From positions 1-21,822 of IMG/VR virus record IMGVR_UViG_3300042691_003046: a DNA stretch of 21,822 nt. One strand, written 5' to 3'. This document shows positions 5,828 to 21,822 of the stretch, piece after piece (the first letter of the stretch is position 1; every line of letters starts with the position of its first letter). The notes under the pieces are model-generated. The model searched no databases. It was given only the letters and a program-made list of their open reading frames with translations, and was not told the origin of the DNA. The translations under genes and the position numbers were made by a program. Source of the DNA: a virus.

Positions 5828-6045
5828 TTACAATTGAAGGTTTGACTAAACAACAAGTAAAACTTCTAGACATCATGTGGTCTATCTATGACATTGAAGT
5901 TTACGATGAGTGGAAATCTGCACTCAATGAAGAGTTGCAAGATATGGTAGATGTACTGGAGAAACTCGCTCTATACGAAACATTAGAACAGGAACTGCAA
6001 GACTTTACGCAAGCCAATGAGGTGCTAAAGAAATTTGCTTTGTAA
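5824..6045 (+). CDS. Conserved small acidic helical protein
   Basis: A 73-residue protein coupled to mazG by an ATGA overlap. It starts MITIEGLTKQQVKLLDIMWS, continues with an acidic, Leu-rich helix-forming region and ends with a repeated-looking LEKLALYETLEQELQDFTQ and ANEVLKKFAL. The N-terminal signature (I-x-GLT-x-QVKLLD-MW) is familiar to me from T4-like cyanophages and related marine phages, where it is annotated as hypothetical. Probably a small cytoplasmic helical bundle; partner unknown. Confidence 0.8.
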   Translation: MITIEGLTKQQVKLLDIMWSIYDIEVYDEWKSALNEELQDMVDVLEKLALYETLEQELQDFTQANEVLKKFAL

Positions 6046-10895: not shown

Positions 10896-11330
10896 ATGAA
10901 ACAGAAGTGGATTGATGCATTCATGGACACTGCGGAGAGATTCGCACAGCTGTCCTCTGCAAAACGATTGCAGGTGGGTGCGGTTGTCGTGAAAGACAAT
11001 CGTATCATCTCAATCGGATATAATGGTATGCCATCTGGTTGGACAAACGAATGCGAAGAGGTCATTGAGGTGCACGAAGATGGTGGTGTGATTACCAAAA
11101 CCAAAGACGAAGTTATTCACGCTGAAGCAAATGCTATTCTGAAGTTAGCACGTGATGGTGAATCAGGAAATGGTGCTAGTTTATTTTGCACTCATGCTCC
11201 TTGCGTACACTGTGCTAAGTTAATCTATGGAGCAGGCATAAGTAGTGTGTACTATCGCACATCTTATCGTGACGAACTAGGTATAGATTTTTTAAATAAA
11301 TGTAAAATTGAGGTGAAAAAGTATGAGTGA
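10896..11330 (+). CDS. cd: Deoxycytidylate (dCMP) deaminase
   Basis: A 144-residue member of the zinc-dependent cytidine/deoxycytidylate deaminase family. The active-site motif HAEANA (H75, E77) and the zinc-binding PC-x2-C (C103, C106) are intact, as are the RLQVGAVVVKD start and GYNGMPSGW substrate loop. It converts dCMP to dUMP for thymidylate synthesis, consistent with an AT-rich phage genome. Shorter than T4 gp cd (about 190 residues), mainly in the insertion region. It starts one base after the previous stop with no clear RBS, so it probably depends on translational coupling. Stop overlaps the next gene by eight bases. Confidence 0.93.
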   Translation: MKQKWIDAFMDTAERFAQLSSAKRLQVGAVVVKDNRIISIGYNGMPSGWTNECEEVIEVHEDGGVITKTKDEVIHAEANAILKLARDGESGNGASLFCTHAPCVHCAKLIYGAGISSVYYRTSYRDELGIDFLNKCKIEVKKYE

Positions 11331-12006
11331 GAATGTAGAAGAGCAACAATCTGAAGTCAAAGAAATTGGACAACATTTAAAGAATGCATCTATCATGCCG
11401 TTGTTTCCAACTCCTCTTATTATTGGAGAAGTGGAAGATGAAACACTATGTGAAGAGTTAGAAGAACATATATTAAAACTAAGAAATGATAAACAAGGAT
11501 TCTTTGAAGCTGGTAATTTTGTGACTGATGATCAGTTGTATATTCCAGGAAGAGGTTTTGATAGATTCTCAGAGTTAGTTCTTAATGAATCAAAAAACTT
11601 TTTAGATTTTCTTAAAGTTAAACGTGATGAACATTATATTAGTGGTATGTGGGCAAATGTGACTAATCCAAATCATCGACATCCAGTGCACATTCATCCA
11701 AATTGTTTGATTTCTGGAATTCTTTACATTAAAACTCCAGAGAACTGCGGTAAAACTGCATTTTCAGATCCACGTCCAGCTGCCAGAGTGTTTGAGCCAT
11801 CATATGAGGAGATGTTTGAATTCAACTCTGGACTTATGAGATATCCACCAAAGCGTGGAACTATGTTGATGTGGCCAAGTTGGTTACCACATGCCGTTGA
11901 ACGAGGTTTCTGTGCAGATGAAGACCAAGAAAGAATTACTATTGCATTTAATGTTATGATGTTGGGTAGAATTGACACCATGACTGGTAAATTAGAACTA
12001 AACTAA
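11323..12006 (+). CDS. 2-oxoglutarate/Fe(II)-dependent oxygenase (TIGR02466-like)
   Basis: A 227-residue protein. From residue 25 it has MPLFPTPLIIGEVED, the typical N-terminus of the TIGR02466/2OG-FeII_Oxy_5 family. Iron-binding candidates are H123 or H125 in HIHPN, D149 in SDPRP, and H190 in WLPHAV; R204 in ERITIAFN would bind 2-oxoglutarate. The double-stranded beta-helix blocks SGILYIKTPENCGKTAF and GTMLMWPSW are present. Such oxygenases are very common in T4-like phages of aquatic bacteria; substrates are unknown. It sits directly before a peroxiredoxin. Confidence 0.85.
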   Translation: MSENVEEQQSEVKEIGQHLKNASIMPLFPTPLIIGEVEDETLCEELEEHILKLRNDKQGFFEAGNFVTDDQLYIPGRGFDRFSELVLNESKNFLDFLKVKRDEHYISGMWANVTNPNHRHPVHIHPNCLISGILYIKTPENCGKTAFSDPRPAARVFEPSYEEMFEFNSGLMRYPPKRGTMLMWPSWLPHAVERGFCADEDQERITIAFNVMMLGRIDTMTGKLELN

Positions 12007-12014
12007 GGGATATT

Positions 12015-12572
12015 ATGAAAGAAAGAGAATATATTAACAGAACAGTGGGTAGTTTTTGGCCACGATGGGTTCGAGAGAATTATTTTGCAGTAGAACCAAA
12101 CTCAACAGAGCCATCTGAAGTATCAATGACTATTGAAAATAAATGGAAAGTTTATTATTTCTATCCAAAAGACTTTACATTTGTATGTCCAACTGAGATT
12201 GTAGATTTTGATAATCTGATTCCAGAGTTTGAAAAACTTAATGCTGTTGTGTTTGGAATTTCTCCAGATAACGAATATTGTAAGTTGGCATGGAAGCAAT
12301 CAAATCCTCTATTGACTAATTTGCAACATACACTGCTTGTAGATTCTGGTAATGAGTTGGCAAAGGAATGTGGCATTGCAACATCAGATGGAACTCCACT
12401 CCGTGCTACGTTTATTGTTGATCCACAAGATGAGGTTCAGCACGTCAGCATAAACAATCACAATGTCGGTAGAAATGCAGCAGAGATTCTACGAATTCTT
12501 GATGCGTGTCAAAAAGGTAGTGAAGGTGGATTATGCCCAGCCAACCGACAAGTTGGTGGCGAAACATTATAA
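12015..12572 (+). CDS. ahpC: AhpC-type 2-Cys peroxiredoxin
   Basis: A 185-residue thioredoxin-fold peroxidase. The active site FYPKDFTFVCPTEI is complete: P51, T55, peroxidatic C58, with catalytic R130 in LRATFIVDP. The resolving Cys is C174 in GGLCPANR, near the C-terminus, as in typical 2-Cys AhpC/Prx1 enzymes. It reduces hydrogen peroxide and organic hydroperoxides. No reductase (AhpF, AhpD, thioredoxin) lies nearby, so it would rely on host reductants. RBS AAGGGA. Adjacent to the 2OG oxygenase, whose chemistry consumes oxygen; a joint role in redox defence of the infected cell is inference. Confidence 0.92.
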   Translation: MKEREYINRTVGSFWPRWVRENYFAVEPNSTEPSEVSMTIENKWKVYYFYPKDFTFVCPTEIVDFDNLIPEFEKLNAVVFGISPDNEYCKLAWKQSNPLLTNLQHTLLVDSGNELAKECGIATSDGTPLRATFIVDPQDEVQHVSINNHNVGRNAAEILRILDACQKGSEGGLCPANRQVGGETL

Positions 12573-14674: not shown

Positions 14675-14682
14675 GATAAATA
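14675..14682 (+). promoter_or_regulatory. T4-type late promoter motif GATAAATA
   Basis: GATAAATA lies just after the previous stop, with an expected start near 14688 and a normal short leader containing AAGGAG before the ATG at 14707. Confidence 0.55.
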
Positions 14683-14706
14683 ATAAATCTTAACAAGGAG
14701 ATTATT

Positions 14707-14967
14707 ATGTCAGTTTTTACTAAAACAGTTTGGGGTCCAGAGTTCACAGAAGAACTTGCTACTCAGTGGGACACTATTAAAATGGATACACTACAAGCAT
14801 TGATTGATTCAAACAAAGTGGCTTATCCAAAAACCATCATTGAAGGTGTTCGATTCGGTGGACAACGTGGCTGGGTAGATATGGCAACTGCTGAAAGCTG
14901 GAAAGAATTCGTTGAAGAATCCGCAGAAATCATGAATGTTACCGTAGAAGTAACAATCGTAGAATAA
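14707..14967 (+). CDS. Conserved late small protein, 86 residues
   Basis: AAGGAG RBS. The protein starts MSVFTKTVWGPEFTEELATQ, has a middle EGVRFGGQRGWVDMATAESW and a C-terminal beta-prone VTVEVTIVE. Versions with FT-TVWG and EGVRFG...V-W are familiar from T4-like marine phages. A late promoter lies upstream and a terminator downstream, so it seems to be a monocistronic late gene, and the product may be made in quantity. Function unknown. Confidence 0.8.
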   Translation: MSVFTKTVWGPEFTEELATQWDTIKMDTLQALIDSNKVAYPKTIIEGVRFGGQRGWVDMATAESWKEFVEESAEIMNVTVEVTIVE

Positions 14968-14990
14968 AATTGATTTGATGAACCAGCAAT

Positions 14991-15012
14991 AAACCCTCAC
15001 ACGAGGGTTTTC
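14991..15012 (+). terminator. Rho-independent terminator
   Basis: AAACCCTC (14991-14998) pairs perfectly with GAGGGTTT (15003-15010), loop ACAC, short T-run. Confidence 0.8.
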
Positions 15013-15027
15013 ATTTAATGAATTGAT

Positions 15028-15234
15028 ATGAATATAAAAGATTATCATAAAGAAATACAACCTAAACTCTCATTCGAAGAGTGGAAGTCAAGTCTGGCTC
15101 CAAGCATGCCAGAAGATAAAATCTCTGCATTTTCACGACTGCACGACATCGACTACAAGAAACAATGGGAAGAAACACTGAAGAACGAGTACGCAGAGTA
15201 CCTTTCTAATCTCAATGGAAACTGGTTACTATGA
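15028..15234 (+). CDS. Hypothetical 68-residue protein
   Basis: Helical, charged and Trp-containing (FEEWKSSLAP, QWEETLKNEYAEYL). There is no good RBS before the ATG, which sits just after the terminator. The stop overlaps the next start (ATGA), supporting reality. Not recognised. Confidence 0.65.
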   Translation: MNIKDYHKEIQPKLSFEEWKSSLAPSMPEDKISAFSRLHDIDYKKQWEETLKNEYAEYLSNLNGNWLL

Positions 15235-15416
15235 CAAAAGAAAAGTTAGAATCTCATATTGCATCATTAAAGAAAAAGCATCGTAAGTTAGATGAAGAAA
15301 TCACTGAGTTGGACTGTCACTACGATGAATACCTGCACTGTGAAGAACTAAAGAAAAAACGTCTAAGATTAAAGGAAGAAATTTCACGATGCGAAAAACA
15401 ATTGGAGAATCTATGA
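15231..15416 (+). CDS. YdcH/DUF465-like coiled-coil protein
   Basis: A 61-residue two-helix protein. The HIASLKKKHRKLDEEITEL segment and RLRLKEEISRCEKQLENL ending match the DUF465 (YdcH) pattern H-x2-L-x3-H-x2-LD-x2-I ... LK-x-x-I. The family forms a small antiparallel helical hairpin; its role is not established. It is common in proteobacteria, so it may have come from a host. ATGA overlaps on both sides show translational coupling. Confidence 0.75.
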   Translation: MTKEKLESHIASLKKKHRKLDEEITELDCHYDEYLHCEELKKKRLRLKEEISRCEKQLENL

Positions 15417-15583
15417 AGTGGATCATCGGAGCAATCCTAGTCGTACTATCACCACTAATTCTTGCGATCGCAATGTTCTATGCAATCGTTGTAAAGTTAC
15501 CACTGTTTGCATACTATTGCGCACATGAATACTACGAACACAAGACAGGTAAGAAGCACGAAGGCATTGGCTGGTACAAATAA
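15413..15583 (+). CDS. Small single-TM protein
   Basis: The ATG at 15413 overlaps the previous stop; an in-frame ATG at 15389 is possible but lies inside the previous gene. The 56-residue product has one long hydrophobic segment (residues 3-29) and a polar His/Tyr/Lys-rich tail (HEYYEHKTGKKHEGIGWYK). Likely an inner-membrane protein with a short cytoplasmic or periplasmic tail. Unknown function. Confidence 0.7.
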   Translation: MKWIIGAILVVLSPLILAIAMFYAIVVKLPLFAYYCAHEYYEHKTGKKHEGIGWYK

Positions 15584-15585
15584 TT

Positions 15586-15593
15586 CATAAATA
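15586..15593 (+). promoter_or_regulatory. T4-type late promoter CATAAATA, leaderless geometry
   Basis: CATAAATA lies just after the previous stop. In T4 geometry (motif at -13 to -6) the start is 15599, exactly the A of the PlcP-like gene's ATG. No Shine-Dalgarno is visible. Confidence 0.6.
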
Positions 15594-15598
15594 GTGGT

Positions 15599-16390
15599 AT
15601 GCTTAAAACATACCGCACAATCTTTATCTCCGATGTTCATCTTGGCACTCGTGACTGCAAGGCAGAACAGCTGAATAACTTTCTGAAGCACAATACCTGT
15701 GATACTCTCTATCTTGTTGGAGATATCATCGATGCTTGGAAAATTAAACAAAACAAGTGGAAATGGAAACAATCCCACACCAACGTAGTTCGTCGTGTAC
15801 TTGGCCATGCAAAACGAGATACAAGAGTGGTTTATGTGGCTGGTAATCACGATGAGTTTTTAAGACCAATGATACCCTATGGATTTTCCTTTGGTCTAGT
15901 TGAGATTCACAATCAAACTGAACACATTGGTGTGGATGGAAAGAAATATCTGGTTACTCATGGAGATCTGTTTGATGGAATTACTCGACTGGCTCCATGG
16001 TTGGCATTTCTTGGCGATAAGTTATATGATCTAGTCCTCGACTGGAACTCTCGTTTTAACTGGATTCGACATAAGCTGGGTTTTGGATACTGGTCACTGA
16101 GTAAATACCTAAAGAATAAGGTAAAGAAAGCCAGTGATTTTATGTTTCAGTTCGAAAGGAATCTGGCATCATATTGCAAGAAACGTGGTTATGATGGTGT
16201 AATCTGCGGACACATACATCATGCGGAGATAAAAGAAATCGATGGTGTAGCATATATGAACGATGGCGACTGGGTAGAATCAATGACTGCTCTGGTTGAA
16301 CATCATGATGGTCGTTGGGAAATTATAACATGGACGAAAACAAGTGATAAAAATACTGATAGTGACGGACAATCTACCAGACCAGATTAA
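15599..16390 (+). CDS. plcP: PlcP-like metallophosphoesterase (LpxH/COG2908 family)
   Basis: A 263-residue calcineurin-like phosphoesterase with all metal motifs: SDVHLG (D12, H14), VGDIIDAW (D42), GNHDE (N83, H84), THGD (H121) and GHIHHA (H205, H207). The full pattern, including FNWIRHKLG, YWSLSKYLK and NDGDWVES near the end, is that of proteobacterial proteins usually annotated UDP-2,3-diacylglucosamine diphosphatase. Members of this group in rhizobia and marine bacteria have been shown to be PlcP, a phospholipase C acting on membrane phospholipids during phosphate starvation. The following overlapping gene is an Agt-like glycosyltransferase, the usual partner of PlcP. A true LpxH role in lipid A synthesis is the alternative. 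The last 15 residues, where the next gene overlaps, are low in complexity. Confidence 0.88.
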   Translation: MLKTYRTIFISDVHLGTRDCKAEQLNNFLKHNTCDTLYLVGDIIDAWKIKQNKWKWKQSHTNVVRRVLGHAKRDTRVVYVAGNHDEFLRPMIPYGFSFGLVEIHNQTEHIGVDGKKYLVTHGDLFDGITRLAPWLAFLGDKLYDLVLDWNSRFNWIRHKLGFGYWSLSKYLKNKVKKASDFMFQFERNLASYCKKRGYDGVICGHIHHAEIKEIDGVAYMNDGDWVESMTALVEHHDGRWEIITWTKTSDKNTDSDGQSTRPD

Positions 16391-17324
16391 TGGTGTCGTT
16401 ACCACGTTCAAAAATCTGGAAGATTACGCTAATCGTGATGGGTATAGCATTGTTTATCTTGATCCCAGGAAGTTCCATCATTTTAATGCTGTGGGCTATC
16501 CTGAAGTTAAGATCTCAATCCCCATTGGTATTGGTAAAGCGATTGAAGCGATACATGCGGATCATATTCACATCGCCACAGAAGGTCCAATAGGTCTCGC
16601 TGCACGACTATATCTGGATCGAAAGAAGATACGCTACAACACTAGCTATCATACAAAATTCCCCGAGTTTCTAAAACAAATCTATGGCATTCCAATGTCA
16701 TGGACGTATCGCTATGTTCGCTGGTTTCATAAGCACTCTGGAATTGTACTGACCACCACAAAGACCATGGTCAATGACCTAAGATCCAATGGATTCGATG
16801 GTAATATTATTCCATGGACTCGTGGTGTCAATCGTGCTAATCTACATCCCAATCAATCAAGAACTGAGAGTAAGATTCCACGTGTTCTTTACGTTGGTCG
16901 TGTGTCAAAAGAAAAGAATCTAGACGCACTCTGCAAACTCACTGATTATCATATTCGAATTGTTGGTGATGGTCCAGATCGATCTAGACTAGAGAAAACC
17001 TATCCTCACGTAAAGTTTCTGGGCTATAAGTCTGGCACTGAACTTGCCAATGAATATCACAGTGCCGATGTATTTGCATTCCCATCCAAGACCGATACCT
17101 TTGGAATCGTTATTATTGAAGCACTCTCACTGGGTACACCAGTTGCTGCATATCCTGTTCCTGGACCAATTGACATACTTACTCCAGAGAATGGCATAAT
17201 GGATAACGATCTCAAAACAGCTATTAATAGTGCTCTATCTCTTCCTAGGGAAAGGGTGAAAAAATCATCCGAAGTCTGGACATGGGAAGAATGCTGGAAC
17301 ATATTCAAACGGAATCTACAGTGA
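16344..17324 (+). CDS. agt: Agt-like GT4 glycosyltransferase
   Basis: A 326-residue GT-B enzyme of the SqdX/Agt/PimB-like GT4 group. The GTG start at 16344 gives the family N-terminus ILIVTDNLPDQINGVVTT; it overlaps the phosphoesterase by 47 bases. Visible signatures: HIATEGPIGLAAR (about 76-88), NTSYHTKFPEF, RWFHKHS, VGRVSKEKN (R186, K191) and DTFGIVIIEALSLGTPV (D251, E259) with the nucleotide-sugar EX7E-like site in which the first Glu is Asp, as in SqdX-like proteins. In marine bacteria Agt makes glucosyl- or glucuronosyl-diacylglycerol from the DAG released by PlcP. Sugar donor and acceptor cannot be read from sequence. Slightly short against the usual 350-400 residues. Confidence 0.88.
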   Translation: MIKILIVTDNLPDQINGVVTTFKNLEDYANRDGYSIVYLDPRKFHHFNAVGYPEVKISIPIGIGKAIEAIHADHIHIATEGPIGLAARLYLDRKKIRYNTSYHTKFPEFLKQIYGIPMSWTYRYVRWFHKHSGIVLTTTKTMVNDLRSNGFDGNIIPWTRGVNRANLHPNQSRTESKIPRVLYVGRVSKEKNLDALCKLTDYHIRIVGDGPDRSRLEKTYPHVKFLGYKSGTELANEYHSADVFAFPSKTDTFGIVIIEALSLGTPVAAYPVPGPIDILTPENGIMDNDLKTAINSALSLPRERVKKSSEVWTWEECWNIFKRNLQ

Positions 17325-17352
17325 TTCTATACTATCCAAGGGAAACGAAAAA

Positions 17353-17508
17353 ATGAAAACACTCCAAGAACAACAAACCGAAGCAATCCTAGCCATGGCT
17401 GAAGCAATAAAAACGCTGGAACAACAACTGGCACATGCAACAAAACGAGTCGCAGAATTGGAAGCAATCGTGGCAAGCCAGAGAGAAGTTATAAAGGAGT
17501 TACAATGA
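17353..17508 (+). CDS. Small coiled-coil protein, 51 residues
   Basis: The ATG follows AAGGGA. The product is Gln/Glu/Ala/Leu-rich and helical throughout, with heptad-like spacing (IKTLEQQLAHATKRVAELEA), so it is probably a short dimeric coiled coil. The ATGA overlap with the next gene supports it as real. Function unknown. Confidence 0.7.
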   Translation: MKTLQEQQTEAILAMAEAIKTLEQQLAHATKRVAELEAIVASQREVIKELQ

Positions 17509-17702
17509 ATCCGTCTCTTACTAATATTCTCGAAGGAGAGAAAATTACCACAGATGATACTGTGGAATATCAACTATCCACTCACGAGAAGCAAGCTGAG
17601 TTCGCCAAGAAAAGAGATGCATCCCTTAATGAGTACATGAAGCAAGCACAAGAACTGTGGAATGATTCGTGTACATCACCGAGAAAACCAAAGGAAGAAT
17701 AA
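17505..17702 (+). CDS. Hypothetical 65-residue protein
   Basis: Charged and mostly helical (EKQAEFAKKRDASLNEYMKQ), no TM, no motif. Coupled on both sides (ATGA before, TAATG after), in a tight run of four small genes following agt. AAGGAG precedes its ATG. Not recognised. Confidence 0.7.
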   Translation: MNPSLTNILEGEKITTDDTVEYQLSTHEKQAEFAKKRDASLNEYMKQAQELWNDSCTSPRKPKEE

Positions 17703-17896
17703 TGTTAAAAGATCGTAAATTACTGGTAGAGAATGAGATAACCAAGCTAACCGATGTAGCTGCACATATGTACCTAGATGCAATGGTGAGTGAAAGTACG
17801 TTATCCCAAGAGTATCATGACATCCGTGAACGTATTACAGACTTACAGCATGAACGTAAGATGATACAATTACTCCTAGACAAGGGACATGAATGA
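17702..17896 (+). CDS. Hypothetical helical 64-residue protein
   Basis: The start at 17702 overlaps the previous stop and is preferred to an upstream in-frame GTG at 17669, which lies in the previous gene. Two amphipathic helices (KLLVENEITKLTDVAAHMYL and YHDIRERITDLQHERKMIQL). Not recognised. Confidence 0.7.
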   Translation: MLKDRKLLVENEITKLTDVAAHMYLDAMVSESTLSQEYHDIRERITDLQHERKMIQLLLDKGHE

Positions 17897-18051
17897 ATCA
17901 AGAGACAATACAACTGGCCATCTGTGCTTTCTACAATCTATTCATACTCTCGTTGTCTGTAGTCCTAGTAGCATTATATGGATGGAGCGTATGGTGGATG
18001 CTCGGTGCTGTACTATGTTTCGCCAGCTTTAGAGATAGGGATGCTATTTAG
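17893..18051 (+). CDS. Small hydrophobic membrane protein, 52 residues
   Basis: An ATGA-coupled frame with two closely spaced hydrophobic segments (residues 6-27, LFILSLSVVLVALYGW region, and about 33-44) and a polar end. Trp-rich around the turn. Probably a small inner-membrane protein; nothing more can be said. Confidence 0.6.
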   Translation: MNQETIQLAICAFYNLFILSLSVVLVALYGWSVWWMLGAVLCFASFRDRDAI

Positions 18052-18102
18052 TGGAGCATGGTGGACGTATATCCCCAGAAATGACAATTAGTCTGTTTAT
18101 GA

Positions 18103-18405
18103 ATGCAAGCGATGGCGTATAAAGAAAAAACTTGTCCTAAGTGTTCCGTCAAGCACACCAAGCGTGGTGAGTTCTGTAGTCGTAGCTGTGGCAACTCACG
18201 ACCACTAACGACTGAGCAGAAGCAGAAAATCGGACAGAAGAAATCAGCGTGGCTCACTGGTGGTACTGATGAAGCTGAAGCAGCAGTACATACCTTCACT
18301 AGTGGTGGTGCCAATAAGCCAGCCGAGCCCATCGCACCTATTACTAAGAAACCCATCCAGTCAAATCAATTTGTTCAGGATGGCGATCTGTGGACTGAGG
18401 TCTAG
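18103..18405 (+). CDS. Zinc-ribbon protein with NUMOD3-like segment
   Basis: Start is at the first ATG after a stop (18103) or at 18112; neither has a good RBS. Residues 11-32 form a treble-clef-like zinc site (CPKCSVKH ... FCSRSCGNSR: four Cys plus His). It is followed by TTEQKQKIGQKKSAWLTGG, which resembles the NUMOD3 DNA-binding repeat of phage homing endonucleases. No nuclease domain is present, so this could be a DNA-binding remnant of one, or a small regulator. The Pro/Ala/Lys-rich tail (about 63-90) looks unstructured. Confidence 0.65.
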   Translation: MQAMAYKEKTCPKCSVKHTKRGEFCSRSCGNSRPLTTEQKQKIGQKKSAWLTGGTDEAEAAVHTFTSGGANKPAEPIAPITKKPIQSNQFVQDGDLWTEV

Positions 18406-18413
18406 TGATAATC

Positions 18414-18434
18414 CGACAAATATCTTTGTCGTTT
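18414..18434 (+). terminator. Probable weak terminator
   Basis: CGACAAA (18414-18420) pairs with TTTGTCG (18425-18431), loop TATC, short T-run. Placed just after the zinc-ribbon gene and before a promoter. Confidence 0.5.
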
Positions 18435-18452
18435 GCAACTTGCAATTTAGAT

Positions 18453-18481
18453 TTGTCTTAGACTTGACTTTGGTGTAGAAT
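18453..18481 (+). promoter_or_regulatory. Sigma70-type promoter
   Basis: TTGTCT (18453-18458), 17-base spacer, TAGAAT (18476-18481). The expected start near 18488 is not followed by an ORF for about 170 bases, suggesting an RNA product. Confidence 0.6.
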
Positions 18482-18487
18482 CACTGT

Positions 18488-18566
18488 GTTAGGGGTTGAT
18501 CGAGACAGAGAGACACCGAGAACGACCTAAAACCCTCTATTCTGTAGGGTTATTAATCCCTGTAAA
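18488..18566 (+). ncRNA. Possible small RNA between two promoters
   Basis: No ORF follows the promoter at 18453. The segment ends in a hairpin AACCCT/AGGGTT and the 25-bp repeat also found in the terminator at 4630, here without a long T-run. It would give an RNA of about 80 nt. A leader for the ATPase gene is the alternative. Confidence 0.3.
18541..18565 (+). repeat. 25-bp repeat, copy B (with 4630-4654)
   Basis: One mismatch to 4630-4654. As at copy A, a TTGTCT-like promoter lies a few tens of bases downstream. Confidence 0.85.
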
Positions 18567-18597
18567 AACAACAACTTACGACACCTCCAGAAAGGTG

Positions 18598-18626
18598 TTG
18601 TCCTTAATTCGCAATTAGGGAATAAT
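18598..18626 (+). promoter_or_regulatory. Sigma70-type promoter for the AAA ATPase
   Basis: TTGTCC (18598-18603), 17-base spacer, AATAAT (18621-18626). It keeps the TTAATTCGCA run of the promoter at 7153. The -35 overlaps the 3' arm of a hairpin (ACACCT/AGGTGT, 18581-18598). A leader of about 26 bases holds GAGAGG. Confidence 0.75.
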
Positions 18627-18658
18627 ACTCTTATTGAATTGATTAAGAGAGGTTTTTT

Positions 18659-19555
18659 ATGAATGTATCCGCTGTGAGTTTTGACGCTAAATCTGGTAAT
18701 TATATGGCTAAAGTTGGTTCCAAGACTATCAAGTCTTACTCTAAGGCATATGTGGAGCGTCGTGTAAAAGCGATGGTCGGTGATGTTAGCGTTGCGATTG
18801 CAGCTGCTACTGAAAAGCAAAATCGTTTCGACATTAACACTCGTTTCGGTTTCGTTGAAAAGCTGGTTAATATGGTTGCCACTGGTGTTCAGCCATCTGC
18901 TGTGATTACTGGCGAAGGTGGACTGGGTAAGACTTACACTGTGACTAAGACTCTTGAAGCAAATGGCTACAAAGATATTAGTGATTTGGCTGAATTCCAA
19001 GTTGGTGCTGTTATTAATACACGTAAGTGTTTCACCATGGTTAAGGGTTATTCGACTGCCAAGGGTTTGTATCGTACTCTGTTCGAAAACAACAAGTCCA
19101 TTATCGTGTTCGATGACTGTGACGCTGTGTTGAAAGATCCTGTGGCACTGAATCTGCTTAAGGGAGCATTGGACTCTTACGGTAAACGTATCATTAGCTG
19201 GAATGCTGATATGAAGGACGATGATCTGCCACGTTCATTCGAGTTTACTGGTCGTGTTATCTTCATCTCGAACATGGACCAAGATCGCATCGATCAAGCC
19301 ATTCGTAGTCGTAGTATGATGATCGACCTGTCTATGTCGTTGGACCAGAAGATCGATCGTATGGAGTTTATTGCAAAATCCGACGAGTTCTTGCCAGAGT
19401 ACGATGCTAAGATCAAGTCTGACTCGTTATCGCTTATCCGTGAAATCAAGGATGACTGCAAAGAAATCTCTCTGCGTACCCTTATCGCTGTTTGTAAGAT
19501 TCGTGCTTCGAACAAAGAGTATCGTGATCTTGCTACTTACATGTTGACTGCTTAA
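18659..19555 (+). CDS. AAA-family ATPase
   Basis: A 298-residue single-domain AAA+ protein: Walker A GEGGLGKT (85-92), Walker B SIIVFDDCD (147-155), sensor-1 FISNMD (N205), and RSRS (R216, R218) as the likely arginine finger. The N-terminal 60 residues are basic and lack a known domain; the C-terminal lid is helical. The family drives remodelling of protein or nucleic-acid complexes; phage members of this size are usually unassigned. Own promoter and good RBS. It precedes a run of tiny genes and a conserved small protein (19565) that may be co-expressed. Confidence 0.88.
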   Translation: MNVSAVSFDAKSGNYMAKVGSKTIKSYSKAYVERRVKAMVGDVSVAIAAATEKQNRFDINTRFGFVEKLVNMVATGVQPSAVITGEGGLGKTYTVTKTLEANGYKDISDLAEFQVGAVINTRKCFTMVKGYSTAKGLYRTLFENNKSIIVFDDCDAVLKDPVALNLLKGALDSYGKRIISWNADMKDDDLPRSFEFTGRVIFISNMDQDRIDQAIRSRSMMIDLSMSLDQKIDRMEFIAKSDEFLPEYDAKIKSDSLSLIREIKDDCKEISLRTLIAVCKIRASNKEYRDLATYMLTA

Positions 19556-19564
19556 GGAGTTATT

Positions 19565-19771
19565 ATGATTAGAGTAATAGTAAATGGTGTTTCATTCTAC
19601 ACTACTAAGAGTAGGATTAAGAATCGTAATATTGGTAGCGATAGTAATATAAATCTGGCTGTGGCTCAGTTATATGAAGACATGTTTAATGCTGTCGGTA
19701 TTACTAGTAGGATTACAGTATACGATAGCAAAATGAATCGTGTTAGCTATGATATTCAAATTAACAAATAA
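19565..19771 (+). CDS. Conserved small phage protein, 68 residues
   Basis: AAGGAG lies ahead of the ATG, nine bases after the ATPase stop. The product is beta-rich at both ends (MIRVIVNGVSFYTTKSRI, then ITVYDSKMNRVSYDIQ) with a helix in the middle (NINLAVAQLYEDMFNAVGI). The G-V-x-F-x-TTK-RI and SN-N-AV-x-Y-E-MF signature is familiar from phage proteins without known function. Confidence 0.78.
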   Translation: MIRVIVNGVSFYTTKSRIKNRNIGSDSNINLAVAQLYEDMFNAVGITSRITVYDSKMNRVSYDIQINK

Positions 19772-19781
19772 GGAAATAATT

Positions 19782-19859
19782 ATGGACAATATTAGATATA
19801 TTGGAATCGCAGTGGCGATCTACGCTATACCTATTAGTTTATATTGGCTCACTAGGTAG
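19782..19859 (+). CDS. Tiny TM peptide, 25 residues
   Basis: An AAGGAAA RBS precedes the ATG; the frame encodes one TM helix (YIGIAVAIYAIPISLYW) with a polar start and a basic end. A second similar tiny frame lies at 20043. Plausible single-pass micropeptide, but short. Confidence 0.5.
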   Translation: MDNIRYIGIAVAIYAIPISLYWLTR

Positions 19860-20042
19860 GAGGGGGTAGGGGTCAGAGCAAATCTATAAGAGGGTTAGGG
19901 ACTCCTACTGATAGAGAAGCGATGTATTATCCCCCATCATACACACCACTCCACCCTATGAATCTATAGAGGGTTACAGCGTTTGAAACGGTAATTCACT
20001 AAAAAATTCCCCGAGATATTTTTTGACTTAGAAAGGTTGCAT
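19860..20042 (+). other. Intergenic stretch with a direct repeat
   Basis: No credible gene. A direct repeat AATCTATAAGAGGGTTA (19881-19897) / AATCTATAGAGGGTTA (19961-19976) lies 80 bases apart. G-rich at its start (AGGGGGTAGGGG) and followed by a C-rich stretch (TCCCCC at 19930-19935). A TTGACT at 20023 has no matching -10. Confidence 0.6.
19881..19976 (+). repeat. Direct repeat AATCTATA(A)GAGGGTTA
   Basis: Two copies (19881-19897 and 19961-19976) differ by one inserted base and are spaced 80 bases. GGGTTA also ends motifs at 4636, 12674 and 18547, all in non-coding sequence. Confidence 0.6.
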
Positions 20043-20123
20043 ATGAACTACGAACACAAACGAGCATGGCTTATTCTGGGAATCGGCTATGTACTGGTAA
20101 TTGGAGCATTGGTGCTATTATGA
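20043..20123 (+). CDS. Tiny TM peptide, 26 residues
   Basis: AAAGG lies about nine bases ahead of the ATG. Basic N-terminus then one TM helix (AWLILGIGYVLVIGALVLL), stop overlapping the next gene (ATGA). The coupling and clean TM pattern support coding. Confidence 0.55.
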   Translation: MNYEHKRAWLILGIGYVLVIGALVLL

Positions 20124-20341
20124 ATACAGGTTTAACGATTCCCCACGAAGTTAGTGATGGTATTACCCTAGCTACACTAATAGAAGGTAGAGACTATCTA
20201 CAGTCGGAGTTGGATCAATGGAATAACAATCCCAAGGATGAATCTAATCCTAGTGGTTATTGGTTACATCCTGAAGATGTTGTGAATAACATGAATCTAA
20301 TTCGTGCAATGAATACGCTTATTAAGTATTATGGAGGTTAG
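20120..20341 (+). CDS. Hypothetical 73-residue protein
   Basis: The frame extends upstream to 20066 but the ATG at 20120, coupled to the tiny TM peptide by ATGA, is preferred. Contains PHEVSDGITLATLIEGRDYL and YWLHPEDVVNNMNLIRAMNT: a helical protein with a Trp/His loop in the middle. I recall similar small proteins in T4-like phages but know no role. Confidence 0.75.
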   Translation: MNTGLTIPHEVSDGITLATLIEGRDYLQSELDQWNNNPKDESNPSGYWLHPEDVVNNMNLIRAMNTLIKYYGG

Positions 20342-20342
20342 T

Positions 20343-20540
20343 ATGGAAGAATATACACGTAAGACTAAGATAACTGTGTTGAAGAACTATGATCATCTTG
20401 CAAAGGAACACGACTTCATCGAGCTATGTGAATGGCACAATGGCGAGGGATTCGATGTAACCATTAGTGATACTAAGAGCATCTCTCTTACATGGGGTGA
20501 GTTCGAAGCATTAACTGCTTTGGCTCATTACAAGGGTTAA
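20343..20540 (+). CDS. Conserved small phage protein, 65 residues
   Basis: The ATG at 20343, six bases after GGAGG, is favoured over the in-frame ATG at 20331, which lies in the previous gene. The product, TRKTKITVLKNYDHLAKEHD then ELCEWHNGEGFDVTISD and LTWGEFEALTAL, is a recurrent small phage protein pattern to my memory. Mixed beta/alpha; no known function. Confidence 0.8.
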   Translation: MEEYTRKTKITVLKNYDHLAKEHDFIELCEWHNGEGFDVTISDTKSISLTWGEFEALTALAHYKG

Positions 20541-20575
20541 ATTTTCCGATCCCGAGATAGAAAGAGACTAGACTA

Positions 20576-20713
20576 ATGGACGACTGGGTTGCAGCCAAAA
20601 ATTATCGTACCTACTATTGGAGGAATGGGATATTGCAAGTTAAGAATGGTATTCGTATGCTATGGTATGGAGTTCTCCTTAATCGAGGACATCCTAGTAG
20701 ATGGCGAAAATAA
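20576..20713 (+). CDS. Hypothetical 45-residue basic protein
   Basis: A 45-codon frame with many Trp, Tyr and Arg residues (WVAAKNYRTYYWRNGILQV, HPSRWRK at the end). Upstream AAAGAGA is a weak RBS. It fills the space up to the promoter at 20717. Reality is likely but not certain; not recognised. Confidence 0.55.
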   Translation: MDDWVAAKNYRTYYWRNGILQVKNGIRMLWYGVLLNRGHPSRWRK

Positions 20714-20716
20714 TGC

Positions 20717-20745
20717 TTGTCTTAAATGTTTAATTGGGGTATAAT
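20717..20745 (+). promoter_or_regulatory. Sigma70-type promoter, leaderless architecture
   Basis: TTGTCT (20717-20722), 17-base spacer, TATAAT (20740-20745). The ATG at 20752 begins seven bases after the -10, as at 4730 and 9677. Confidence 0.85.
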
Positions 20746-20751
20746 AATCTT

Positions 20752-21081
20752 ATGTTATCGACTATAAAATTTCTCTTCCTAATTGCAGGACTGTACCTAG
20801 TAGTTGCAGGGTATATGGTACTGGGATTAATTTGCCTTGCCATTGCAATTGGACTAACATTCTTACTTTCACTGAGTTTGTTATTCGTTGGAATGGTTGC
20901 AGTGTTAATGTTAACTGGATGTGGATCTTTTGTCGAGACAAAGAATATCTACATTGATAATTCAGCAGTCAATAACTACGTTGGTAATCCCTGTGGATTT
21001 TATCTTGGGGATCATTGTTTGGTATGGAAAGATGGTCGTATGGCTCGTAATCCAGAAAACCCATATAGAGGTAATAAATGA
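20752..21081 (+). CDS. Membrane protein with a lipobox-like LTGC, probably leaderless
   Basis: The frame is open from 20734, but that TTG lies inside the promoter, so the ATG at 20752 (predicted +1) is chosen. The 109-residue protein has two long hydrophobic segments (about 5-21 and 26-55), the second ending in LTGCGSF, which looks like a lipobox though it is far from the N-terminus. A polar tail with two Cys follows (NPCGFYLGDHCLVW). It may be a membrane protein with a periplasmic tail or a lipoprotein with an unusually long leader. It overlaps the phosphoesterase (ATGA), so both share the promoter. Confidence 0.75.
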   Translation: MLSTIKFLFLIAGLYLVVAGYMVLGLICLAIAIGLTFLLSLSLLFVGMVAVLMLTGCGSFVETKNIYIDNSAVNNYVGNPCGFYLGDHCLVWKDGRMARNPENPYRGNK

Positions 21082-21822
21082 AAATCGCAATTTGCTCAGA
21101 TGTCCATCTAGAGTTTGGACAACTGGAATTAGAAAATACACAGGATGCTGAGGTACTTGTACTCTCAGGAGATATCTGCACGGCAGTGGATCTTAAAGTC
21201 ACGGACAGTATCTTGTCCTCTGCAAAGACAGATCGTTACATGGAGTTCTTTACTCAGTGTTCTAAAAACTTTCCCCACGTGGTGTATGTCATGGGTAATC
21301 ACGAGCACTATCATGGTGACTACGCTGAGTCTATTGTTCACATCAAGCGTGCATTGAGGCATCTGGAAAACATTCATGTTCTAGACAAAGAAGTATTCAC
21401 TCTTGGAGATTATGTATTTCTGGGTGGCACTCTTTGGACTGATATGAATGGTGAAGATGAACACACCATCAATCATGTACAGCGTCGGATGAATGACTTT
21501 CAAATCTGTGTGAATAGTAATGAGATGGTTAATTACAGAGTTTGGGATGAGAAGGATGATGGTACTGAAACTGTAAAGTTTAAGATTCGCCCAGCAACTT
21601 TGACTCCACGACATGTGATTGAAGACCACAAAGAGATGTTAAAGTTCATCGAGGTTAATTACAATATGACTCCTCCATGGATGACAACCATTGTTTGTGG
21701 TCATCATGCTCCAAGCAAGAGTTCAGAGCATCCTCGCTATGCTCATGATACACTAATGAATGGTGCATACAATTCTCGTTTGGATCAATTCATTATGGAT
21801 CGTCCAGGAATTAAATTGTGGA
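21078..21822 (+). CDS. Metallophosphoesterase (3' partial)
   Basis: The ATG at 21078 overlaps the previous stop; the frame is open to the window end (248 codons visible). Calcineurin-like motifs are present: SDVHLE (D8, H10), LSGDI, MGNHEHYHGD and CGHHAPS, the last being the C-terminal His-containing motif. This second phosphoesterase is not of the PlcP type: it is close to a small phosphoesterase family common in T4-like cyanophages and SAR11 phages, whose substrate is unknown (nucleotides or phosphodiesters are usual for the fold). It is expressed with a membrane protein from a leaderless promoter. Confidence 0.88.
   Translation, partial: MKIAICSDVHLEFGQLELENTQDAEVLVLSGDICTAVDLKVTDSILSSAKTDRYMEFFTQCSKNFPHVVYVMGNHEHYHGDYAESIVHIKRALRHLENIHVLDKEVFTLGDYVFLGGTLWTDMNGEDEHTINHVQRRMNDFQICVNSNEMVNYRVWDEKDDGTETVKFKIRPATLTPRHVIEDHKEMLKFIEVNYNMTPPWMTTIVCGHHAPSKSSEHPRYAHDTLMNGAYNSRLDQFIMDRPGIKLW

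Follow-up and report, generated by a model that had tools for sequence, protein, structure and literature searches.

A virally encoded plcP-agt-like gene pair

The 21.8-kb viral record analysed here (39% GC; the whole stretch of 21,822 nt is referred to as the window) carries a metallophosphoesterase gene (PE) followed by a glycosyltransferase gene (GT), and it raises the question of whether a phage can remodel the membrane lipids of its host. In bacteria, phosphate-starvation lipid remodelling by plcP-agt is known from SAR11 HTCC7211, Agrobacterium and Methylosinus (PMC4796936, PMC8231724, PMC9239053). The first-pass annotation had described two overlapping genes encoding a complete metallophosphoesterase and a GT4 glycosyltransferase. 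Both open reading frames are indeed intact and their Pfam domains agree with this description (Table 1); the GT start codon lies inside the 3′ end of PE, with an overlap of 47 nt. We consider it likely that the pair is the phage counterpart of the plcP-agt operon by which bacteria remodel their lipids. The family identity of both proteins, their conserved pairing, purifying selection, motif enrichment and pstS linkage are computed results, while enzymatic activity, PhoB binding, the benefit in phosphate and the host are inferred.

The window is a fragment of a T4-like phage. It encodes a T4-type RNase H and 14 tRNA genes, and its nearest long relative, a 164-kb record, has the same gene order across 14676-21614. 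The T4-type capsid protein Gp23 was found in 10 of 15 related records of up to 357 kb, including this syntenic 164-kb record. The window also encodes a dCMP deaminase, a 2OG-Fe(II) oxygenase and a peroxiredoxin, with the cluster of 14 tRNA genes downstream; a peroxiredoxin is again found near PE in about 20 relatives. At its end lies another metallophosphoesterase of phage type, which does not belong to the PHROG of PE.

Table 1. Coordinates of the gene pair, its upstream motif and other features in the window and in related phage records
Feature	Record	Position	Strand	Description
T4-type late-promoter motif	window	15586-15593	+	CATAAATA; 5 nt upstream of the PE ATG; from sequence
PE (metallophosphoesterase)	window	15599-16390	+	263 aa; ATG start; intact ORF; Pfam Metallophos
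GT (GT4 glycosyltransferase)	window	16344-17324	+	326 aa; GTG start; intact; Pfam Glycos_transf_1 / Glyco_transf_4
dCMP deaminase	window	10896-11330
2OG-Fe(II) oxygenase	window	11323-12006
Peroxiredoxin	window	12015-12572
Other metallophosphoesterase	window	21078-21822		phage-type (phrog_1649); cut by the window end
Transporter-PE intergenic region	Mosig (L001)	5851-6000
GT2-type glycosyltransferase	L049	6749-7462		~237 aa
DesA-type desaturase	L022	2727-3431		beside PE-GT2
DesA-type desaturase	L031	7576-8277		beside PE-GT2
DesA-type desaturase	L066	7459-8169		beside PE-GT2
RimK-type ATP-grasp ligase	L156	3917-4789		~295 aa; between plcP and agt
CHASE2 + adenylate/guanylate cyclase	L157	7211-9265		~680 aa; directly 3′ of agt
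CHASE2 + adenylate/guanylate cyclase	L014	8624-10666
CHASE2 + adenylate/guanylate cyclase	L065	7893-9911
Gram-negative porin	L126	3287-4441		PF13609; 0.6 kb upstream of PE
Mpo1-like membrane protein	L158	6996-7607	-	weak match; just after agt

PE is predicted to be a PlcP-type phosphoesterase

The nearest solved structure to PE, both by sequence and by predicted fold, is LpxH, and the closeness of the modelled fold fits a shared superfamily. All seven metal ligands of the metallophosphoesterases, as listed in PMC5016852, are found in PE (D12, H14, D42, N83, H121, H205 and H207) and are invariant in the phage and bacterial sequences. At the GNRD site, arginine is exclusive to LpxH, and other family members have a catalytic histidine (PMC5016852). 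The motif of the window PE is GNHDE in place of the GNRDF of E. coli LpxH and three further LpxH proteins, and GNHD was present in all bacterial PE homologues sampled. The NCBIfam LpxH models TIGR01854 and NF003743 gave PE 34.8 and 47.5 bits, far under their cut-offs of 190 and 134, and gave E. coli LpxH 389 and 364 bits. Four bacterial PlcP-type homologues (one each from Pelagibacteraceae, the SAR11 order, a betaproteobacterium and Pseudomonas) scored 37-58 bits on these models, as low as PE. LpxH was rejected as the identity of PE on the GNHDE residue and these scores.

A tree of PE was built with SAR11-order homologues in plcP-agt arrangement as the PlcP reference, without an experimentally characterised PlcP. 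LpxH was split from all PlcP-type sequences at 100/100, and the phage clade was placed among or beside the bacterial PlcP-type proteins. An AU test did not reject phage PE and LpxH as one clade (p 0.15), leaving unsettled the point at which LpxH joins, and for this reason we rely more on the residues and model scores than on the tree. Two cellular sequences (L165 and L166) joined the PE clade of Pelagibacter phage Mosig, and their contigs look bacterial when checked for phage origin. PE is under strong purifying selection (dN/dS 0.07-0.08 against close relatives). A firm grouping with LpxH had been named in the first-pass annotation as grounds for giving up the PlcP reading, and, within the limits of sequence evidence, PE is not an LpxH. 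Taken together, these results predict that PE is a PlcP-type phospholipase C that would remove a phosphate-containing head group, an activity inferred from its family.

GT is predicted to be an Agt-type glycosyltransferase

Mutagenesis of the SAR11 Agt (GTcp) identified 14 residues that matter, namely three glycines, His104, Thr162, Arg163, Arg190, Lys195, Asp256, Thr257, Phe258, Gly259, Glu264 and Trp320 (PMC8231724). The mapping used the SAR11 homologue L243, which is numbered in parallel with GTcp, in place of GTcp itself, and all 14 residues had counterparts in the window GT: G17, G81, G84, H103, T159, R160, R186, K191, D251, T252, F253, G254, E259 and W314. They include the catalytic His-Asp dyad (H103 and D251) and the Thr, Arg and Trp of the diacylglycerol site (T159, R160 and W314). 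Both UDP-sugar motifs are also present, as GRVSKEKN and FPSKTDTFG (family forms GRVAXEKN and FPSXTDTFG). The residue equivalent to D251, which is essential in SAR11 Agt, is Asp in the window, but 8 of 30 phage GTs and 12 of 43 cellular GTs have Glu there.

The first-pass annotation had left room for a lipopolysaccharide or O-antigen enzyme. In the GT tree, however, the phage proteins grouped with plcP-adjacent bacterial GTs at a support of 99-100, apart from GT4 paralogues and WaaG/WaaB. They grouped with SAR11 Agt at 100/99, and an alternative root was not rejected (p 0.27). The predicted structure (pLDDT 91.8) has a GT-B fold closest to GT4 enzymes, and a search of solved structures with GT gave remote matches only. 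GT is also under strong purifying selection (dN/dS 0.15 against close relatives). From family membership and conserved residues, GT is predicted to be an Agt-type UDP-sugar:diacylglycerol glycosyltransferase.

The pair is conserved in viruses and in SAR11

In IMG/VR, relatives of PE were found in at least 299 stretches and relatives of GT in at least 125, both of which are lower bounds fixed by the seed patterns; since the relatives are this numerous, the pair is not a chance arrangement. The adjacency of the two genes in related phage contigs, which the first-pass annotation had proposed as a check, was borne out: PE and GT were both present, in this order, in 123 of 164 viral loci, and GT follows closely in nearly all of them. 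Most PE-GT spacings fall between -50 and +240 nt; a few loci have 650-1250 nt, and in some of these the gap is filled by a RimK-like ATP-grasp gene. In the isolated phages Mosig and S-SRM01, no GT was found beside the PE homologue.

Among cellular sequences, where the pair is conserved in SAR11 and other proteobacteria, a GT homologue lies just downstream of PE in 42 of the best 80 PE homologues. Within the SAR11 order, 104 of 197 genomes have a GT homologue, and PE is followed by GT in 30 of 30 loci inspected. This order is the "type 2" arrangement of PMC4796936, and a SAR11 Agt from that arrangement produced MGDG and GADG in E. coli (PMC4796936). The same paper used SAR11 PlcP to complement a plcP deletion of Phaeobacter MED193. 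Transfer of the SAR11 operon in one step is not supported as an origin, since phage GT groups with SAR11 Agt and phage PE does not (AU p 0.041). The nearest cellular kin thus differ between the two phage proteins, which could mean that they were brought together from two separate sources or that the evolution of PE was fast.

Late-promoter motifs and, in relatives, Pho-box-type repeats precede PE

The late-promoter core NATAAATA was found within 30 nt upstream of PE in 31 of 103 distinct upstream regions, compared to 37 of 1176 for other genes and 0 of 87 for GT4 genes. Of 33 occurrences before PE, 26 lie 5 nt from the start, that of the window among them. According to the T4 late-promoter geometry, which we presume to apply here, the transcript is expected to start at the A of the PE ATG or at a neighbouring nucleotide, which would make the late PE message leaderless; there are no transcript data. 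The motif occurs in two spacing classes before other genes of these phages, at 3-7 nt and at 15-30 nt. The longer class often has a Shine-Dalgarno sequence (for example at 14675 of the window), and leaderless mRNA is expected for the shorter one.

Pho-box-type repeats (two TGT[AC]A[CT] units, 11 bp apart) were found in 19 of the 103 distinct PE upstream regions, compared to 0 of 87 for GT4, 0 of 17 for GT2 and 3 of 1176 for other genes. The only other gene cluster with such repeats is pstS (4 of 6 members). The repeats before PE lie mostly at -38 or at -48 to -50, positions that are one repeat unit apart. As a negative control, the reversed motif gave no matches. The enrichment is strong (Fisher 4e-19), although this p value overstates independence because the upstream regions are mutually related, and strict sites are missing from about 80% of PE upstream regions in the family. 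A one-mismatch pattern run across whole phage records was uninformative, with forward and control counts alike, and the signal therefore resides only in position and in the downstream gene. Near-canonical repeats also precede phage pstS in two records, CTGTCATATAACGGTCACT in L129 and TGTAATATTACTGTCACAATTATGTCACT in L158, and TTTTAACAATTCTGTAACA is found upstream of some SAR11 plcP genes. In their layout the repeats agree with PhoB sites; binding of PhoB is inferred from the motif alone.

Near the window PE, no Pho box was found in exact or degenerate form, and only the late motif is present. The link to phosphate stress raised in the first-pass annotation is thus supported by the relatives, through these repeats and pstS adjacency; the window copy has no visible Pho box. 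The same annotation had called a late promoter unexpected for nutrient scavenging. That surprise is partly eased by the relatives, which often have both elements before PE.

pstS adjoins the pair in four relatives and GT2 replaces GT4 in others

A search for PstS in 50 related phage records gave four over the cut-off (367-390 bits), which is only 8% of the records. In all four, pstS directly adjoins the pair at a distance of 30-90 nt, upstream in L158 and L097 and downstream in L142 and L129. In 21 loci, a GT2-type glycosyltransferase replaces GT4 directly after PE; the example in Table 1 scores below every named NCBIfam model, and its substrate is unknown. The glycosyltransferase beside plcP varies in bacteria as well (PMC4796936). 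That PE is kept while its partner changes fits a function in lipids rather than a fixed two-protein complex. Some PE-GT2 pairs have a DesA-type desaturase gene after them (401.8 bits against a cut-off of 400), and its cluster is found nearby in 18 loci. These desaturase neighbours suggest a wider lipid module.

Proposed function and alternative explanations

We propose that the virus probably remodels the host membrane when phosphate is scarce; the enzyme activities and the benefit to the phage are inferred. PlcP would cut host phospholipids (phosphatidylethanolamine or phosphatidylglycerol) into a phosphorylated head group and diacylglycerol, and Agt would add glucose, galactose or glucuronic acid from UDP-sugars to the diacylglycerol, giving phosphorus-free glycolipids that would keep the host bilayer intact. 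The infected membrane would be made or kept low in phosphorus, and the phosphate freed could enter phage nucleotides. Because PlcP releases a phosphorylated head group, another enzyme must free the phosphate. Alternatively, after the loss of host mRNA the pair may continue a remodelling that the starved host has already begun. In many relatives, the pair would be read from the Pho-box-like promoter, presumably by host PhoB under phosphate stress, and from the T4-type late promoter, and pstS in some of them would add phosphate uptake. Under low phosphate, lysis is delayed in cyanophages lacking pstS and not in those carrying it (PMC10976474), which makes a similar benefit from the pair plausible. 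Against our explanation count the absence of activity, expression or lipid data for the pair, the lack of a Pho-like site at the window copy and of strict sites in most relatives, the rarity of pstS, the Glu at the D251 position of some GTs, and the two isolated phages whose PE homologue has no neighbouring GT. For the group as a whole, the evidence tips only slightly towards a scheme in which T4-like phages salvage membrane phosphate with a PhoB-switched and then leaderless late plcP, interchangeable GT4 and GT2 partners, and optional pstS and desaturase genes.

The same enzymes could serve to maintain a host function, as cyanophage psbA does: the phage would make up for host PlcP-Agt while the host's transcripts are lost, without gaining extra phosphate. 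The host-like gene order and the late-promoter control agree with this, and mRNA replacement has been proposed for phage PstS (PMC10976474). Pho-like control in the relatives suggests a response to starvation rather than constant maintenance, and we regard pure maintenance as unlikely, even though it is hard to tell from our preferred explanation by sequence. Somewhat less likely still, in our judgement, is that the glycolipids change the envelope in order to block superinfection or ease lysis or assembly, with phosphate incidental. A late promoter would suit such a function at a late stage of infection. In Caulobacter, a phosphate-regulated glycosphingolipid reduces phage adsorption (PMC6445935), and in Ruegeria aminolipids influence phage attachment (PMC9938194). 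However, the Pho-like elements on both PE and pstS and the strict adjacency of pstS point to phosphate. In addition, PlcP and Agt work on the diacylglycerol pool of the inner membrane, whereas adsorption takes place at the outer surface.

The pair might also modify lipopolysaccharide, with PE as an LpxH-like UDP-2,3-diacylglucosamine hydrolase and GT as a lipopolysaccharide glycosyltransferase. The solved structure nearest to PE and the AU result, which we take to reflect an unresolved root, leave this conceivable. It is very improbable given the GNHDE motif and low LpxH-model scores of PE, the Agt-specific residues of GT, at many of which WaaG differs, and a genomic context shared with plcP-agt and pstS.

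Relation to known systems

The phage pair is like bacterial plcP-agt in both protein families, in gene order, in the Agt residues proven by mutagenesis and, in relatives of the window, in the Pho-box-type elements upstream of plcP. It differs in its T4-like phage carrier, in a late promoter that stands 5 nt before the start of plcP, in a gene overlap that is often tens of nucleotides, and in the GT2 swap and the pstS, desaturase or ATP-grasp gene found nearby in some phages. Cyanophages carry the phosphate genes pstS and phoA under host PhoBR control (PMC10976474). The phages described here resemble them in having phosphate-stress genes, pstS and upstream Pho boxes, but the predicted source of phosphate is the membrane phospholipid rather than uptake or a phosphatase.

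Pelagibacter phage Mosig EXVC030M encodes a PE homologue (48% identity) annotated as a putative UDP-2,3-diacylglucosamine hydrolase. It resembles the window PE, and a divergently adjacent gene is annotated as a phosphate ABC transporter; unlike the window, Mosig has an LpxH-type annotation and no Agt beside PE. The region between transporter and PE (Table 1) contains TTTAAC/CTTAAC repeats at 11 bp and, at a distance of 5 nt from the start codon, AATAAATA. A Lake Baikal virome paper reports a viral 'lpxH' (K03269) among auxiliary genes, beside a desaturase. These 'lpxH' entries, from Lake Baikal and Mosig, may be the PlcP-type gene, and virome surveys that take 'lpxH' as a lipopolysaccharide gene may partly count PlcP.

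The first-pass annotation knew of no phage system of this kind. Among open-licence papers searched for phage PlcP-Agt, phage lipid remodelling and lpxH as an auxiliary gene, none described a phage PlcP-Agt, which agrees with that statement without proving novelty. The pathway itself is known from bacteria, but it has apparently not been described in phages, where it has regulation and gene exchange of its own. If the group-wide salvage scheme is true, bacterial viruses would have their first described pathway of this kind for remodelling membrane lipids. Phage DNA demands much phosphate, and the known phage answers are uptake (pstS), a phosphatase (phoA) and the recycling of host nucleotides. 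If the cassette works as in bacteria, phages also tap the large store of phosphate in membrane phospholipid, and the glycolipid-rich membranes left behind could change grazing and the adsorption of other phages.

Other genes near the pair

The RimK-type ATP-grasp gene is located between plcP and agt in L156, L014, L012, L037 and others, and its product might add an amino acid to a lipid or protein. In about 11 loci, the gene directly 3′ of agt encodes a protein with CHASE2 and adenylate/guanylate cyclase domains; to our knowledge, a membrane cyclase carried by a phage is unusual. One phage (L126) has a porin gene upstream of PE; porins of this type are typical of betaproteobacteria, which is a weak hint of a betaproteobacterial host. 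A membrane protein weakly matching Mpo1 (2-hydroxy fatty acid dioxygenase) is encoded just after agt in L158 and about nine other records.
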